This document shows, one piece after another, positions 44,716-48,690 of a stretch of DNA of 64,000 bases (the stretch's first letter is position 1; every line of letters starts with the position of its first letter). The position numbers and the translations under genes were made by a program. Source of the DNA: Flavobacterium dankookense (GTDB lineage Bacteria; Bacteroidota; Bacteroidia; Flavobacteriales; Flavobacteriaceae); NCBI RefSeq assembly GCF_004362665.1, contig NZ_SNXR01000013.1:124001-188000 (forward strand). Direction: 5' to 3'. The notes beneath the pieces are model-generated. The model was not told the origin of the DNA. It did not search any database and saw only the letters and a list, made by a program, of their open reading frames with translations.

Positions 44716-44883
44716 TTATTGTTGAAGAAACAACATATATATAATTACCCAAACGCCTACACATACAAAACCAACATACAACGTATTTAGATTTTGCTTC
44801 AAGTCTTTTTTTATTAACCCTCGATATACTATCCAAAGAGCAAAGTAGGTTATAAACGCTAAAGGAAAATATAATCTAAACAT
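44716..44883 (-). CDS. 55-residue two-helix membrane protein, last cassette-like gene
   Basis: ATG at 44883 to TAA at 44716. The product starts M-F-R-L-Y-F-P-L-A-F-I-T-Y-F-A-L-W and has a second helix T-L-Y-V-G-F-V-C-V-G-V-W-V-I-I-Y-M-L-F, joined by the charged loop R-G-L-I-K-K-D-L-K-Q-N. Both helices are about 17-20 residues. It lies immediately downstream (minus strand) of repeat site A with the same orientation as the other cassette-like genes. Small two-helix proteins in such places are often toxins or phage-defence effectors, but nothing here proves it. Confidence 0.6.
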   Translation of the reverse strand: MFRLYFPLAFITYFALWIVYRGLIKKDLKQNLNTLYVGFVCVGVWVIIYMLFLQQ

Positions 44884-44895
44884 GGTTGGTGTTGT

Positions 44896-44995
44896 TTGTT
44901 AATTATTTCTGTTAAAGATAAAAATTCTTTCGAAAAGTGAACGTGAACTTACCGCAAAATTCACAATCGTGAGAAATGGCTGTTATAAGCTGGCT
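44896..44995 (-). repeat. attC-like repeat, site A (one arm lost)
   Basis: Contains the conserved core CTGTTAAAGATAAAAATTCTT shared in whole or part with sites B, C and D, then AACGTGAACTTACCGCAAA, also seen in site E, and ends GTTATAAGCTGGC. The arm on the low-coordinate side is missing, so it is shorter than B-D. Confidence 0.7.
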
Positions 44996-45005
44996 TCGTA
45001 TTCCC

Positions 45006-45266
45006 TTAGGCAGGTGTCTTGTTGACTTTGGCGGATGCTTTGTTTAGTTTGGCGGATGCCTTGTTCACTTTGGCGGAAGGCTTGTTTAGTTTGGCGGATG
45101 CTTTGTTCACTTTGGCGGGTGTCTTGTTCACTTTGGCGGATGCTTTGTTTACTTTGGCGGGTGTCTTGTTTACTTTGGCCGGTGCCTTGTTTACTTGAGC
45201 CAAAGGCTTGTTTAGTAGAGCCAAAGGTTTGTTTAGTTGAGCCAAAGGCTTGTTTAGTTGAGCCAA
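45006..45266 (-). CDS. Possible heptad-repeat protein encoded by 21-bp tandem repeats
   Basis: An open minus-strand frame of at least 86 residues made of heptads such as A-K-V-N-K-T-P and A-Q-L-N-K-P-L. There is no ATG: the only starts are TTG (45266) or a CTG further up, and a stop lies about 60 bases above. The 21-bp unit keeps several frames open on both strands, so openness is weak evidence of coding. The alternating small, Lys and Val/Leu pattern would make an amphipathic, possibly collagen- or histone-tail-like peptide. Confidence 0.3.
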   Translation of the reverse strand: MAQLNKPLAQLNKPLALLNKPLAQVNKAPAKVNKTPAKVNKASAKVNKTPAKVNKASAKLNKPSAKVNKASAKLNKASAKVNKTPA

Positions 45267-45302
45267 TGTCTTGTTTAGTTTGGCCAGTGCCTTGTTTATT
45301 TT
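45009..45302. repeat. 14-copy 21-bp tandem repeat
   Basis: Fourteen consecutive 21-bp units of the form ggcggatgctttgtttactt+t, variable at positions 3-9 and near position 17. Two sub-types occur: GGCGG-starting units at low coordinates and AGCCA-starting units in the middle (45177-45281). It fills the space between sites A and E, where a cassette gene is expected. Confidence 0.9.
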
Positions 45303-45344
45303 TTGAAAAGTTAGTTTCTAAGCTACTTTTTTGGTTTCTTCCAA

Positions 45345-45400: not shown

Positions 45401-45518
45401 TTGGTGAGGTTGCGAACTTTTGAAGTGATTATTTTCTGTTGAGGGTAAAAATTCTTGTGAAATGGAAAGGTGGACTTGTGACGAAATTTGTAATTGCTTG
45501 AAAAGGTTGTTAGTGGCT
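45385..45518 (-). repeat. attC-like repeat, site B
   Basis: Low arm ATGACGTTCC..., then GGTTGCGAACTTTTGAAGTG, the conserved core (CTGTTGAGGGTAAAAATTCTTGTGAAATGGAA, variant) and high arm ...TTGTAATTGCTTGAAAAGG ending GTTAGTGGC. The stop codon of the upstream gene (45510) lies inside the GTTAGTG end. Confidence 0.75.
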
Positions 45519-46313
45519 GGCATTTTGTATCTTTTCAAAGTAGTCTCCTTTAAATTGATATTTTATTTTCTGTTTTGTCAACTTTCCTTCTTCTGTAATT
45601 AACGGTATAATTATAACTTTATTCTTCACATCATATTTTAACCAAGCATATTCTCTGTCAAGCGAGTTCGGTTCTTGATTAACACTTGATGAGAAGTCAA
45701 TATCATAACTTAATTCATTTTTAATTCCAGATTTTGTTTTTATAAGTTTAGCGTTATCATTTAATTTTCCGTTTTCAATACTGAATATTTTTATTTTATG
45801 ACTTGAAACTGCGGAGCTACCAATTGAAATGCATTTTACAATATAAAAAGTTTTCTTTTTTGAGATTACTTGGTCAAGAATTTCATAAGAATAGCTACTT
45901 TCTCCGTATTCATCAACATCGGATAATAACTTTTGAGAAAAGACTTTTTTACTGCTTTTAAATTGAAATATATTCCTAAAACTTCTCATTGTTCCACCAG
46001 TTTCTGTATCCCAAGAATAAATCCTAAAAAGACTGTTTTTGGATGTTGATATTTCCAAACCACTTTTCGTTAAATCTTTAAAGTCAAGAGTTAATGTTTC
46101 TGGAAATGAAGATGTACATTGTAGCAATAGTTTTTCAAAATCTTCATTACTTTTATTAATTGAATCGTAAGCAAATTCATTTTTGCCTCTTTGGTCTGTG
46201 TAAAATTCAATTTTTTCAAAAGTATCTTTTAATTTTCTGTTACAAGTTTTAATGTCTTGTCCATAACTTGGAAAAGTTAATATAGATACTAAAAGCCATA
46301 TTTGAAATTTCAT
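45510..46313 (-). CDS. Exported protein of unknown function (cassette-like)
   Basis: 267 residues with a signal peptide ending S-Y-G-Q. The mature protein is beta-rich (F-R-I-Y-S-W-D-T-E-T-G-G-T near 100; F-Y-I-V-K-C-I-S-I-G near 157; I-K-Y-Q-F-K-G-D-Y-F at the end) with two cysteines near residues 24 and 66. No family recognised. It is bounded by repeat sites C (upstream) and B (downstream, overlapping its stop codon), so it has the layout of a gene cassette. Codon use is as AT-rich as its neighbours. Confidence 0.75.
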   Translation of the reverse strand: MKFQIWLLVSILTFPSYGQDIKTCNRKLKDTFEKIEFYTDQRGKNEFAYDSINKSNEDFEKLLLQCTSSFPETLTLDFKDLTKSGLEISTSKNSLFRIYSWDTETGGTMRSFRNIFQFKSSKKVFSQKLLSDVDEYGESSYSYEILDQVISKKKTFYIVKCISIGSSAVSSHKIKIFSIENGKLNDNAKLIKTKSGIKNELSYDIDFSSSVNQEPNSLDREYAWLKYDVKNKVIIIPLITEEGKLTKQKIKYQFKGDYFEKIQNASH

Positions 46314-46342
46314 ATAGTCTTATTTAACGTGATGTATACTTG

Positions 46343-46480
46343 CCACTAACGTTCCGCCGATTCTCTTCAGTTGCGAACTTCGGAACTGATTATTTTATGT
46401 TAAAGATAAAAATTCTTGTGAAATGGAAGGGTGAACTTAGTACAAAATTGGCAATTGCGCCAAACGTGTGTTACCGGCTG
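46343..46480 (-). repeat. attC-like repeat, site C
   Basis: Low arm TAACGTTCCGCCGATT..., internal dyad CAGTT-N11-AACTG, core TGTTAAAGATAAAAATTCTTG, and high arm GCAATTGCGCCAAACGTGTGTTACC. Reading the high arm in reverse complement gives TAACACACGTTTGGCGCAATTGC, which aligns with the low arm with bulges, an imperfect dyad of about 137 bp. It begins 8 bases after the stop of the HEPN-like gene. Confidence 0.8.
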
Positions 46481-46487
46481 CTTTTGA

Positions 46488-47516
46488 TTAAGTATGATGC
46501 TTATTTTTTTTACTCAAAGATGGTAGTATAAGATAGTTGATTACAGATAATTTGCTCAGCATAACTATTTCAAGTATCGTAACAAATTCTGCATCATGTT
46601 CTTTTTCTGTTAACTCATTCCAAAATGGTTCAGTTGAAAAGCTAAATCCTGTATGGACTATTTTTGAACGCAGACTATAAAGATTATTAAACTTTTTTTT
46701 GAATCCATCTCCATTACCAATAAAATCTAATAAAAAATCTAAGTATCGTTTGGAAATCTTATATCTTGGTTGTCCGCATTCTTTACACAGTTCGGGTTTA
46801 TAATTCTTATAATAGAAATTCATCACAGTTTCTATTGATGTAAATGCAGATAAAATCCCTAAAGTTGTTTTATCTTCCATTAGTTCCATACTTAAACAAG
46901 AGTATTTTATAGCGGAATCTATAACTCTTTTTTCTTCAGTACTCAAATTAAAATAAGCTCGTAAACCCATTATAATATTGTTTGGTAATGTTATTTCTTT
47001 TGTTTGATCATAATCATAGTTTGGTTCATTTTGATAATATTCTGAATATTCAATTACCTTAATTGGTTTGTATTGATTTGAAACCTCGGTAAACTCAATA
47101 ATATCTAAATTAATCCCTTTGTGTAAAAAATGATTATAAAGAAATTCTGAGCCATCGATTTCTGATATTTCTTCTTTCGACATCTTAGTAGTTATAGGTA
47201 AAACCCAATTTCCTTCTATTTTATATTTAAAAAAAGTAAACGTCGAGAAAAGATTCAGAAGATTGATAATTTTGTCTTGCTTTGTTTGGATTGTTGCAGT
47301 TTCAGATATTTGTTCTTCGAACTCTTTAATGGAAAATTGTGGTTTGATTTTATCTTCTTCATTGAGTTTAAATTCCAGAAAGATTGGATAATGTCGATGT
47401 TTTTTTGTTTCTAAATACTTATCCTCAACTGGATAAATTTGGAATTCATTCTCGTACTTGAAATAACTTTTAAGTGGTGTTTTGGTAAAGATTATTGTCT
47501 TGTAAATGTCTTTCAT
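46488..47516 (-). CDS. HEPN-domain protein (ApeA-like), cassette-like
   Basis: 342 residues, soluble. The N-terminal ~190 residues are beta-rich and unassigned. The C-terminal ~150 are helices ending in L-Y-S-L-R-S-K-I-V-H-T-G, an R-x4-H motif (Arg283, His288) diagnostic of HEPN ribonuclease-like domains. Between helices is C-K-E-C-G-Q (Cys244, Cys247), half of a possible zinc site. The overall plan recalls ApeA-type HEPN defence proteins. It is flanked by sites D and C, with a TIR gene upstream in the same orientation. I infer an RNA-cleaving effector. Confidence 0.7.
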   Translation of the reverse strand: MKDIYKTIIFTKTPLKSYFKYENEFQIYPVEDKYLETKKHRHYPIFLEFKLNEEDKIKPQFSIKEFEEQISETATIQTKQDKIINLLNLFSTFTFFKYKIEGNWVLPITTKMSKEEISEIDGSEFLYNHFLHKGINLDIIEFTEVSNQYKPIKVIEYSEYYQNEPNYDYDQTKEITLPNNIIMGLRAYFNLSTEEKRVIDSAIKYSCLSMELMEDKTTLGILSAFTSIETVMNFYYKNYKPELCKECGQPRYKISKRYLDFLLDFIGNGDGFKKKFNNLYSLRSKIVHTGFSFSTEPFWNELTEKEHDAEFVTILEIVMLSKLSVINYLILPSLSKKNKHHT

Positions 47517-47540
47517 TTTACGGTTTCGTGGTTAAAGTTG

Positions 47541-47676
47541 CCGTTAACGTTCGGCGGCTTAGCGCAGTAGCGGTGCCAGCGAGCTACTTATTTTCTGTTA
47601 AAGATAAAATTTTTTCGTGAAGAAAAACGTGAGGTTGAAACTAAACTAGCTATTGCACCAAACCGCTGTTATGCGT
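47541..47676 (-). repeat. attC-like repeat, site D (most complete)
   Basis: Low arm TAACGTTCGGCGGCTTAGCG CAGTAGC (47545-47571); high arm GCTATTGCACCAAACCGCTGTTA (47649-47671), whose reverse complement TAACAGCGGTTTGGTGCAATAGC aligns to the low arm with a few bulged bases. An internal GTAGC-N11-GCTAC dyad and the core CTGTTAAAGATAAAA lie between. It ends GTTATGCG, 6 bases from the TIR gene stop. Confidence 0.8.
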
Positions 47677-47681
47677 AGTCA

Positions 47682-48596
47682 TTATTCTGATTCAAGTATT
47701 AACTCTATTCTACTAGCAACTTTTTCATATATGAGTTCTTGGTCATATTCTGTCATATTGCATAAAGGTGTTGAAGGATCATTTGCTGATTGAAATTGAG
47801 ATATGCTTGGTTCTCGGGTAAACCTACACGGCTTTACAACCAAAGGAATAATTAATGTGCCTTTATCTTCAGCAGCTTTCAATAAAGGTTGCAATTCATT
47901 ATTTATGATAAATTCAGACGCAAGAAAATCAGCACTAATAAGGATTAATGCTATTGAAGACTTGTTTAGTGCGTCTTCTATTTCCTTTTTCCATTTTTCT
48001 CCACTTTTTATTGAGGTATCTGACCATAATTGAATAAGACTTTTTCTTTCTAAAGGTCTTAAATGAATCTGAATTCTTTCTAGATATTTAAAATCTTTAT
48101 GACTATAGCTTACGAATACTGTTTTTAAATCTTTTAACGATTTGTTGTTTAATGGATTTAACTTCCAACTTGCTGGATCTTTGAGTGCTTGTCTTATTAG
48201 ATTTGCCAAATTTGTACTTATATTATTTTCTGCCTCATCACTTTTTTTAATTGCTTGTTCATTGTAAGTAATATACCTTAAACTATGAATCCCATATGGT
48301 AAGTTAGATTCATCATCTATCAGTAATATATTTGCTTTATCAAGAGTATGAGCAACTGCAATTCCATACATTCCGTTAGAATTATCCTTAGAAAGATGAG
48401 TAATAATTAAATCCGATGTTTGAATTGTAGTTTTAACTTCTTCAAAAAAACTTTCAGCTGTTAAGTTGCCTGCTTCAATTAAATTGATTTTAAAATCGGA
48501 AAGATGACTTATTGATTTTTTAACGATTTTTAAAGCTTGATAATAATCATTTAGGTCTTCGACAGGACTAGCAAAAAATATTTGAAATGTCTTCAT
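47682..48596 (-). CDS. TIR-domain protein with second N-terminal nucleotide-hydrolase-like domain (cassette-like)
   Basis: 304 residues, no membrane segment. Residues 1-125 (F-Q-I-F-F-A-S-P-V-E-D-L, I-Q-T-S-D-L-I-I-T-H-L, G-M-Y-G-I-A-V-A-H-T-L) look like a Rossmann-type TIR-like or deoxyribosyltransferase-like domain. Residues 158-300 are a TIR domain: V-F-V-S-Y-S-H-K-D, W-S-D-T-S-I-K-S-G-E-K-W, L-I-L-I-S-A-D-F-L-A-S-E-F-I, with the likely catalytic Glu in I-N-N-E-L. TIR domains of this kind cleave NAD+ in immunity. It is the first gene of the repeat-separated array. Confidence 0.82.
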   Translation of the reverse strand: MKTFQIFFASPVEDLNDYYQALKIVKKSISHLSDFKINLIEAGNLTAESFFEEVKTTIQTSDLIITHLSKDNSNGMYGIAVAHTLDKANILLIDDESNLPYGIHSLRYITYNEQAIKKSDEAENNISTNLANLIRQALKDPASWKLNPLNNKSLKDLKTVFVSYSHKDFKYLERIQIHLRPLERKSLIQLWSDTSIKSGEKWKKEIEDALNKSSIALILISADFLASEFIINNELQPLLKAAEDKGTLIIPLVVKPCRFTREPSISQFQSANDPSTPLCNMTEYDQELIYEKVASRIELILESE

Positions 48597-48616
48597 TAGA
48601 GATTCGTGTTTAATAA

Positions 48617-48690
48617 TTACGCATAACTTGTGTATAGTCGCTACAAAGTAGCGACTATATACCCAAATTTGGGTAGATTGGCGCTACTAA
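48617..48690 (-). repeat. attC-like end F with two strong palindromes
   Basis: ACGCATAAC (48619-48627) matches the GTTATGCG end of site D in reverse complement. It is followed by TATAGTCGCTAC-AAA-GTAGCGACTATA (12-bp arms, 48633-48659) and the 16-bp palindrome TACCCAAATTTGGGTA (48660-48675), then GGCGCTAC. No copy of the A-D core is present. It sits at the upstream boundary of the array. Confidence 0.6.

Follow-up and report, generated by a model that had tools for sequence, protein, structure and literature searches.

A putative cassette-borne TIR effector of Flavobacterium dankookense with an NDT-like N-terminal half lacking the nucleophilic glutamate of its fold family

Within a 64,000-nucleotide stretch of the Flavobacterium dankookense genome (hereafter the window, whose numbering is used for all bare positions), one open reading frame on the minus strand (47682..48596, ATG start; ORF list and Pfam) encodes a protein of 304 aa, in which a domain with the fold of nucleoside deoxyribosyltransferases (NDT) and N-glycosidases is followed by a TIR domain. 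The first domain has lost the glutamate that acts as nucleophile in its family, while the TIR keeps the glutamate of its catalytic position. On balance, it is probable that the gene encodes a one-gene, cassette-borne TIR effector, an NADase of the abortive type, whose N-terminal half has decayed into a sensor or assembly module without catalytic function. The gene would be carried as an integron-type cassette and act as a single-gene effector, with catalysis by the C-terminal TIR, which is most likely an NAD+ hydrolase. The N-domain, a decayed NDT/N-glycosidase fold without nucleophile, would cut no nucleotide and would serve for recognition or assembly; a phage-caused trigger would switch on the TIR, and the TIR assembled into oligomers would hydrolyse NAD+ and stop the cell. 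We infer for this protein the NADase activity, the trigger, the activation by oligomerisation and the role in defence, that is, as an antiphage effector. The most economical mechanism appears to be a TIR NADase of the abortive type, encoded by one gene and regulated by its N-half. A literature search over titles and abstract openings, with most subscription journals outside it, returned no NDT-TIR fusion of this kind.

The C-terminal half (residues 157-303; 47688..48128, minus strand) is assigned as TIR by Pfam, alignment and structure match. In particular, PF13676 (TIR_2) covers residues 160-269 with E=1.8e-16 and 61.2 bits, against a Pfam gathering score of 28, and PF01582 (TIR) matches within the same part of the protein (E=6.7e-6). 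Codon 234 (47895..47897, minus strand) encodes the Glu that the alignments place in the TIR catalytic position, which is invariant in 13/13 aligned TIR sequences, the query included, and is kept by all eight full-length family members described below, each of which also matches TIR_2 at E<=1 (best 4.8e-24). In the structural alignment with AbTIR, the Glu of AbTIR that we take to be its catalytic residue lies opposite E234. The model of this half (residues 157-302) aligns with 7xoz_A (RPPT-TIR) at Z 17.3 and rmsd 2.0 over 134 residues, and with NAD-cleaving TIRs at Z 16.9 (SPARTA TIR-APAZ), 15.2 (AbTIR) and 14.4 (SARM1). The good TIR domain with a catalytic-type Glu described in the initial annotation is confirmed by these data, and the TIR half is, as far as its sequence allows one to say, most likely an NAD+ hydrolase.

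The best PADLOC model for the protein is ThsB of Thoeris (1.6e-21), and other TIR models also match, all of them on the TIR part or on the linker before it. ThsB matches all eight members of the family (best 4e-25) and thereby speaks for a Thoeris-like arrangement, in which the TIR would make a cyclic ADP-ribose isomer, a separate effector would kill the cell and the N-half would be the infection sensor, as ThsB is in Thoeris. Such an arrangement is unlikely, as the ThsB match in the 304-aa protein spans the TIR part only, with 132 of 319 model positions, and the protein differs from ThsB, with which it shares the TIR, by its extra N-domain. Moreover, the two neighbouring array genes have no PADLOC match and so yield no ThsA partner; STALD, the SLOG domain of ThsA, was not found in the genome either, which weighs little as the control query matched nowhere.

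The N-terminal half (residues 1-145; 48162..48596, minus strand) is recognized by alignment, profile and model. Nothing in it exceeds a Pfam or NCBIfam cut-off, and PF05014 (Nuc_deoxyrib_tr) gives no row up to E=10 when the whole protein is compared with Pfam. It matches PHROG 3634 (2.6e-10), PHROG 10872 (5.1e-10), a third PHROG family at 4.4e-6 and, weakly, a fourth, the three stronger being families of unassigned function. Proteins of other genomes that carry this N-domain are mostly without TIR in the genome searches, and 22 of 24 such ORFs were aligned (L057 and L019, both with the family's Glu by eye, were left out). The aligned domains share the pattern NPNVFYELG...PFDL; among ten related N-domains compared with Pfam, two (L052, L061) pass the PF05014 cut-off, five stay below it and three have no row. 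A profile of the N-domain, which includes the query protein's own domain, finds in the PDB DNPH1/Rcl (3.8e-5), then NDT (0.0046), the TIR of CAP12 (0.042) and CMP N-glycosidase (0.083). The AlphaFold2 model of the N-domain alone reaches pLDDT 90.2 and pTM 0.85, and Foldseek places the CMP N-glycosidase BcmB (7.7e-6) and DNPH1 (1.4e-5) first among its PDB matches. The top match by VIA-align is MilB (Z 13.7, rmsd 2.7 over 133 residues); DNPH1 reaches Z 13.1 (rmsd 2.4 over 118 residues), a 2-deoxyribosyltransferase (6evs) 12.7 and the plant TIR RPS4/RRS1 12.6 (rmsd 2.6 over 127 residues). The modelled fold suggests nucleotide binding. In the full-length model (pLDDT 86.9, pTM 0.60) both domains appear well modelled, the pTM being too low to give their relative placement.

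The initial annotation had proposed a two-domain ORF at these coordinates, with an N-half of TIR-like or NDT-like fold in tandem with the TIR. Each of these points stands, since structure prediction and fold search, run on residues 1-145, returned a confident NDT-like model headed by BcmB, DNPH1, MilB and NDTs rather than a fold unrelated to nucleotide binding. The two halves are related Rossmann/flavodoxin-like domains, and this architecture is not a chance one because it recurs in seven other genomes.

The NDT/N-glycosidase and TIR folds are neighbouring branches of one superfamily, and DNPH1 and TIR are tied in Z for the N-domain, with the sequence profile apparently favouring the NDT side. 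This proximity bears on the idea that the N-half is a pseudo-TIR scaffold, akin to the TIRs of CBASS and Pycsar and to DUF4062 NADases, which would build the oligomer and bind no trigger, another protein providing the trigger. The TIR structures follow closely behind the leading matches, with RPS4/RRS1 at Z 12.6 against 13.1 for DNPH1 and 13.7 for MilB, and the N-half of one relative (L087, whose full-length protein also gives a PF05014 row at 5.1e-5, below the cut-off) matches two PADLOC TIR-effector models, PDLC00733 (5.3e-7) and PycTIR (1.3e-4). A faint similarity to DUF4062 is found in 2/8 members, reaching at best the E=0.12 of the 304-aa protein (13.1 bits against a cut-off of 24.7). Against these stand the profile, which prefers DNPH1 and NDT over CAP12, and the pace of change of the N-half, which evolves much faster than the TIR and in this would be unlike a pure scaffold. 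A scaffold of this kind, which overlaps with the assembly-module half of the preferred explanation, is a reading of fairly low probability.

The initial annotation had singled out two motifs of the N-half, ITHL and GMYGIA. Both are present, and GMYGIA turns out to be a degenerate form of the family's xxYELG that has lost its Glu, a loss that had been overlooked. Codon 78 (48363..48365, minus strand) encodes Gly, where 22/22 aligned related N-domains have Glu; the query reads MYGIA in place of their FYELG and retains N72 and N74 next to it. According to PMC4081090, NDT uses its conserved Glu as nucleophile of the active site, and the E103A variant of MilB does not hydrolyse its substrate, still binds hmCMP and has essentially the same structure. 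By analogy, E103A would be the change equivalent to Gly78, and because of this replacement and of the inactivity of E103A the N-half of the 304-aa protein should not be an N-glycosidase. The same comparison indicates that a Glu-less N-half could still be a binder. The domain thus shares its predicted fold with MilB, BcmB, DNPH1 and the nucleoside 2-deoxyribosyltransferases and differs from all of them in lacking the nucleophile.

These observations weigh directly on the stronger version of the earlier proposal, in which the N-half would be a working enzyme that acts on nucleotides and so produces or breaks down a signal. Its fold is that of N-glycosidases and NDTs, and three of the eight family members keep the whole YELG, but with Gly78 in the place of the nucleophile, and given the behaviour of MilB E103A, an active enzyme is very improbable in this protein, for which the claim that the N-half 'processes' a nucleotide finds no support. 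A more specific idea would use the same residue loss: a Glu-less pocket of NDT/MilB/DNPH1 type would bind a nucleotide brought or shifted by a phage, for example hydroxymethylated or other non-host pyrimidine monophosphates, and align the TIRs for the destruction of NAD+, the gene spreading across phyla on an integron cassette, with interchangeable front ends serving one TIR type. Such a chain of assumptions is, taken as a whole, quite unlikely to hold.

The occurrence of the architecture was assessed in the GTDB collection (84,980 species), where one TIR pattern found 145 relatives, the best 80 of which were returned. Among these best 80, seven also have the N-domain and come from four phyla: L086 from Ca. 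Tenebribacter (Cloacimonadota), L087, L088 and L090 from Bacteroidetes MAGs, L089 from Chitinophagaceae, L092 from Pseudomonadota and L093 from Desulfobacterales. Their N-halves match the N-domain profile, built without them, at 1.2e-33 to 1.5e-9. The two halves of the eight members are unequally conserved, with a mean pairwise identity over the 28 pairs of 29% for the N-half and 62% for the TIR. Eight TIR residues are the same in 8/8 members (S163, W191, D193, G199, W202, S227, F229, E234). At the position of the N-domain Glu, an outright loss is found in 3/8, namely Gly in the query, Ile in L086 and Ala in L092; a complete YELG is present in 3/8 (L087, L090, L093), and L088 and L089 have a Glu in a broken motif whose alignment is uncertain, so that 5/8 still show Glu at the aligned position. 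N72 is kept in only 5/8 members and N74 in 6/8; therefore, no common pocket is conserved across the family, and this variation appears to argue against one common nucleotide ligand.

The preferred reading, a regulatory N-half on a working TIR, would fit this imbalance. An N-domain that loses its nucleophile while the TIR keeps its Glu would be expected of a regulatory part, and the divergence of the N-half, at 29% against 62%, is like that of fast-evolving sensors. That the domain has decayed and changes fast suggests a role in recognition, and what is recognized may differ from member to member; with a Glu in 5/8 and a full YELG in 3/8, the domain may be enzymatic in some of them. The intact motif is absent in 4/4 members that are cassettes or probable cassettes and present in 3/4 of the others (Fisher ~0.07, calculated by hand), the members being too few for this association to be used. 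As a separate observation, a Lokiarchaeota contig carries a TIR gene of this type and, about 3 kb farther on, an NDT-like gene (L132:3474-4466; E=1.7e-30 against the N-domain profile).

The phylogeny of the TIR domains, computed from 80 rows (L133 was dropped as too short), groups all eight fused proteins in a single 17-member clade (98/94). The fusion label requires three changes on the tree, against an average of 7.8 for shuffled labels, none of 500 being as low; with three changes, a single origin of the fusion is neither established nor excluded by the tree. Of the nine remaining members, two (L091, L127) are truncated where their contigs end, five (L094-L098) begin with a short stretch that looks helix-turn-helix-like by eye, and L099 and L103 begin with a different one that looks beta-rich by eye. 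The same clade of TIRs is found with several N-terminal parts; therefore, one TIR type is served by several front ends, a pattern that would be that of sensor-effector proteins.

At the level of genomes, the ORF has one match only, to itself, in its own genome (3.21 Mb, 19 contigs). With the own genome counted, matches occur in 21/296 relatives, 73/395 genomes of the phylum and 38/398 of the genus, and the N-half alone used as query matches in 8/299 genomes of the family, all four samples overlapping. Outside the own genome, matches in these samples span one half or the other, with two exceptions in the phylum search; these two (G613 and G503, loci L059 and L060) were rejected as full-length relatives, their N-terminal sequence being of another kind by eye. 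Two pattern searches of viral contigs returned no close homologue of the whole protein (one gave no match to its pattern, the other 238 matching stretches, of which none was confirmed). Two phage records, which represent one phage, are matched by the N-half only, while 41 plasmid records are matched, all 40 of those listed on the TIR side; no phage or plasmid match covers 80% of the 304-aa query.

The genetic setting of the gene is that of an array of cassettes, all on the minus strand, separated by attC-like sites. An integron cassette has a left end complementary to the R'' of that same cassette, a sign of the circular form. The left end of the TIR cassette, GTTATGCGTAATTAT (48613..48627), is complementary at 13 of 15 positions to its own R''-like end, GTTATGCGTAGTCAT (47668-47682), which belongs to the attC-like site that closes the cassette (47541..47682, limits approximate; repeat match of 73% at 47588-47671). 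The other end of this site overlaps the start of the next cassette at 47534-47548. There follow a HEPN-type cassette gene of 342 aa (46488..47516; ends 47534-47548 and 46470-46484, 12/15), the attC-like site that ends its cassette (46336..46484; repeat search and alignment) and a third cassette gene without a family in Pfam or PADLOC (45510..46313; ends 46336-46350 and 45509-45523, 12/15). Two further attC-like repeats lie at 45409..45519, the reference copy of family D2, and at 44882..44992, 61% identical to the reference. Repeats of ~111 nt lie at 44882, 45409 and 46370, with the diverged fourth copy after the TIR gene, and the whole genome holds 14 matches, array copies included. Eleven copies were aligned (four from the window, seven from elsewhere in the genome). 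Apart from departures in single copies, they have in common an attC-like arrangement from ...AACA(G/A)... through to ...GGAACGTTA....

The complementarity of the ends was compared with several controls. Among 47 control genes of the window, the best score is 12/15, reached by two that are both T-rich, and eight reach 11. For the TIR cassette, 2/200 shuffles were as good and mismatched partners reached up to 12; with a looser anchor, 17/200 shuffles matched the ends of the 45510 gene and 7/200 equalled the best pair found for the HEPN-type gene, a pair other than its true ends. A plus-strand ORF that spans the array's tandem repeat scores 7. Elsewhere in the genome, two ORFs beside the same repeat (L218:4050-4622 and L220:2476-3261) have ends at 14/15, and an ORF of 61 aa with no known repeat near it (L221:3555-3740) reaches 13/15, probably by chance. 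In the relatives, the test covered 77 TIR ORFs from the 80 loci, after removal of ORFs with too little flanking sequence: ends of at least 13/15 were found in 5/77 (L164, L116, L089, L097, L092) versus 0/914 mismatched pairs, and 7/77 reached 12 versus 0.2% of mismatched pairs. From these ends, the fused relatives L089 and L092 look like cassette cargo too, and L086, whose left end starts with A (12/15; 10/200 shuffles as good), is probably a cassette; no cassette ends were found in L087, L088, L090 and L093. Cassette-like ends of 12 to 14/15 were also seen at TIR genes without the NDT-like half (L116, L164, L097, L102 and L146, the last of which may be chance).

Base composition, folding and gene content were considered as well. 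The GC content is 29.3% in the TIR gene, 27-28% in the neighbouring cassette genes and 32.1% over the window, and 37-40% in the flanking PhnB, SRPBCC and DUF2200 genes. Folding of the attC-like sites gave z values of 0.49 for the one that follows the TIR gene and, on either strand of the next one, of -1.58 and -0.60; in the five strands, 139, 10, 49, 110 and 35 of 200 shuffles did at least as well, and no convincing hairpin emerged. No match to the integron integrase model TIGR02249 over the cut-off was found in the own genome, the best being partial (positions 239-315, 94 bits), and none of 150 Flavobacterium genomes gave an integrase at E<=1e-40, the positive control being likewise without a match. 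This partial match lies in a 120-aa ORF (L223:1482-1844; C8:85110-85340) that resembles the C-terminal end of an integron-type integrase and is apparently truncated. As for an empty site, SRPBCC adjoins PhnB, as in the own genome, in 13/29 loci of other genomes, and the DUF2200 side was seen in none of the short flanks among the 29 loci, which thus yielded no empty site. The 'mobile-looking array' of the initial annotation can, in view of the attC-like repeats and of the self-complementary ends at 13/15, be specified as a putative integron-type cassette array without a proven integrase.

Other features of the region and genome were recorded alongside. A tandem array of a 21-nt unit (TTTGGCGGATGCTTTGTTTAG-like) occupies 44942-45319, between two attC-like repeats, and a similar low-complexity ORF (L218:1965-2297) lies near another array of the same genome. 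Strong palindromes (15-nt arms, 93%; 25-nt, 88%) stand at 48630-48688, immediately upstream of the TIR cassette's left end, and may be what is left of an older recombination site or serve the upstream gene as terminator. Three more regions, L218 (C1:171.5-180 kb), L219 (C1:411-422.5 kb) and L220 (C2:45-50.5 kb), carry further attC-like repeats with mostly unnamed cargo.

The initial annotation had drawn attention to an adjoining HEPN gene. The protein at 46488-47516 does contain a motif of HEPN type, RSKIVH, and this motif is the single feature behind its putative label, for no Pfam, PADLOC, NCBIfam or PHROG model matched it. The gene has matches in 5/150 genomes, the own included, with one strong relative, L226, from another Flavobacterium (31-34%), in which the R-x4-H motif, there RSQITH, and the cysteine pairs are kept. 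The adjacency of the two genes is no evidence of a joint system because the HEPN-type gene forms a cassette of its own with a separate recombination-like site, and no functional link between them was found.

A survey of the neighbours of homologues for defence islands, which the initial annotation had suggested, gave no support except weakly around L092. Among the genes listed, the neighbours of the seven full-length relatives are mainly ordinary or unnamed. Ten genes were compared with Pfam, seven near L086, L089 and L092 and three near the other arrays of the own genome: L092 is accompanied by one CyanoTRADDas_TM and one SLFN_AlbA_2 gene, L086 by a methyltransferase, and the own genome's other arrays by an SLFN_AlbA_2 gene (L219:2341-3243) and a DUF6236 gene. 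PADLOC matched 2/10 neighbour genes, both near L092 (PDC-S31, 9.1e-12; LeoBC, 0.0024). The neighbouring genes point weakly towards a defence role. Both the scarcity of known defence genes among those listed and the cassette location would suit a protein with no part in phage defence, whose TIR would act on NAD+ in the absence of any phage trigger; it might be a regulator, or a toxin carried on the cassette for addiction or to stabilize the array. But there is no second gene between the cassette ends that could be an antitoxin, and the reuse of closely related TIRs with several N-terminal parts would rather follow the sensor-effector pattern; a role of this kind is improbable.

The preferred reading, a single-gene TIR effector with a regulatory N-half, has partial counterparts among known systems. 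Cat1, according to PMC12162218, joins a Rossmann-like sensor to a TIR in one protein, and the TIR cleaves NAD+ after ligand-driven stacking; its sensor is a CARF domain with the ligand cA4 from Cas10, whereas the sensor-like half is here of NDT type and has no known partner gene. According to PMC13174449, DUF4062 is distantly similar to TIR as well as to NDT, and a precedent for an extra module comes from those DUF4062 proteins that have auxiliary domains. Swarozyc, described in the same paper, is a single-gene antiphage NADase of TIR type with an auxiliary part, roles that are presumed for the protein described here; its TIR-like domain is active (E97) and its auxiliary part binds the phage portal, whereas in the present protein the NDT-like half has no Glu and a second, canonical TIR would be the probable enzyme. 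If the Glu of NDT and that of DUF4062 are taken as equivalent, the DUF4062-like domain of the present protein would lack its catalytic Glu. Integron cassettes carry antiphage systems according to papers cited in PMC12444791, and a HEPN family is among the integron cassettes listed in PMC3710099; the array is like these in holding a defence-type gene as a cassette between attC-like sites, and unlike them in having no integrase above the cut-off and sites that depart from the canonical core.

The eight proteins form a small family in which one half, of an enzyme fold, is without its catalytic residue in some members and the other half is a conserved TIR, and which is in this respect a natural experiment on how enzymes become sensors. 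The family also suggests that TIR effectors with swappable front ends may spread as single cassettes outside defence islands, where searches based on gene neighbourhood would miss them.
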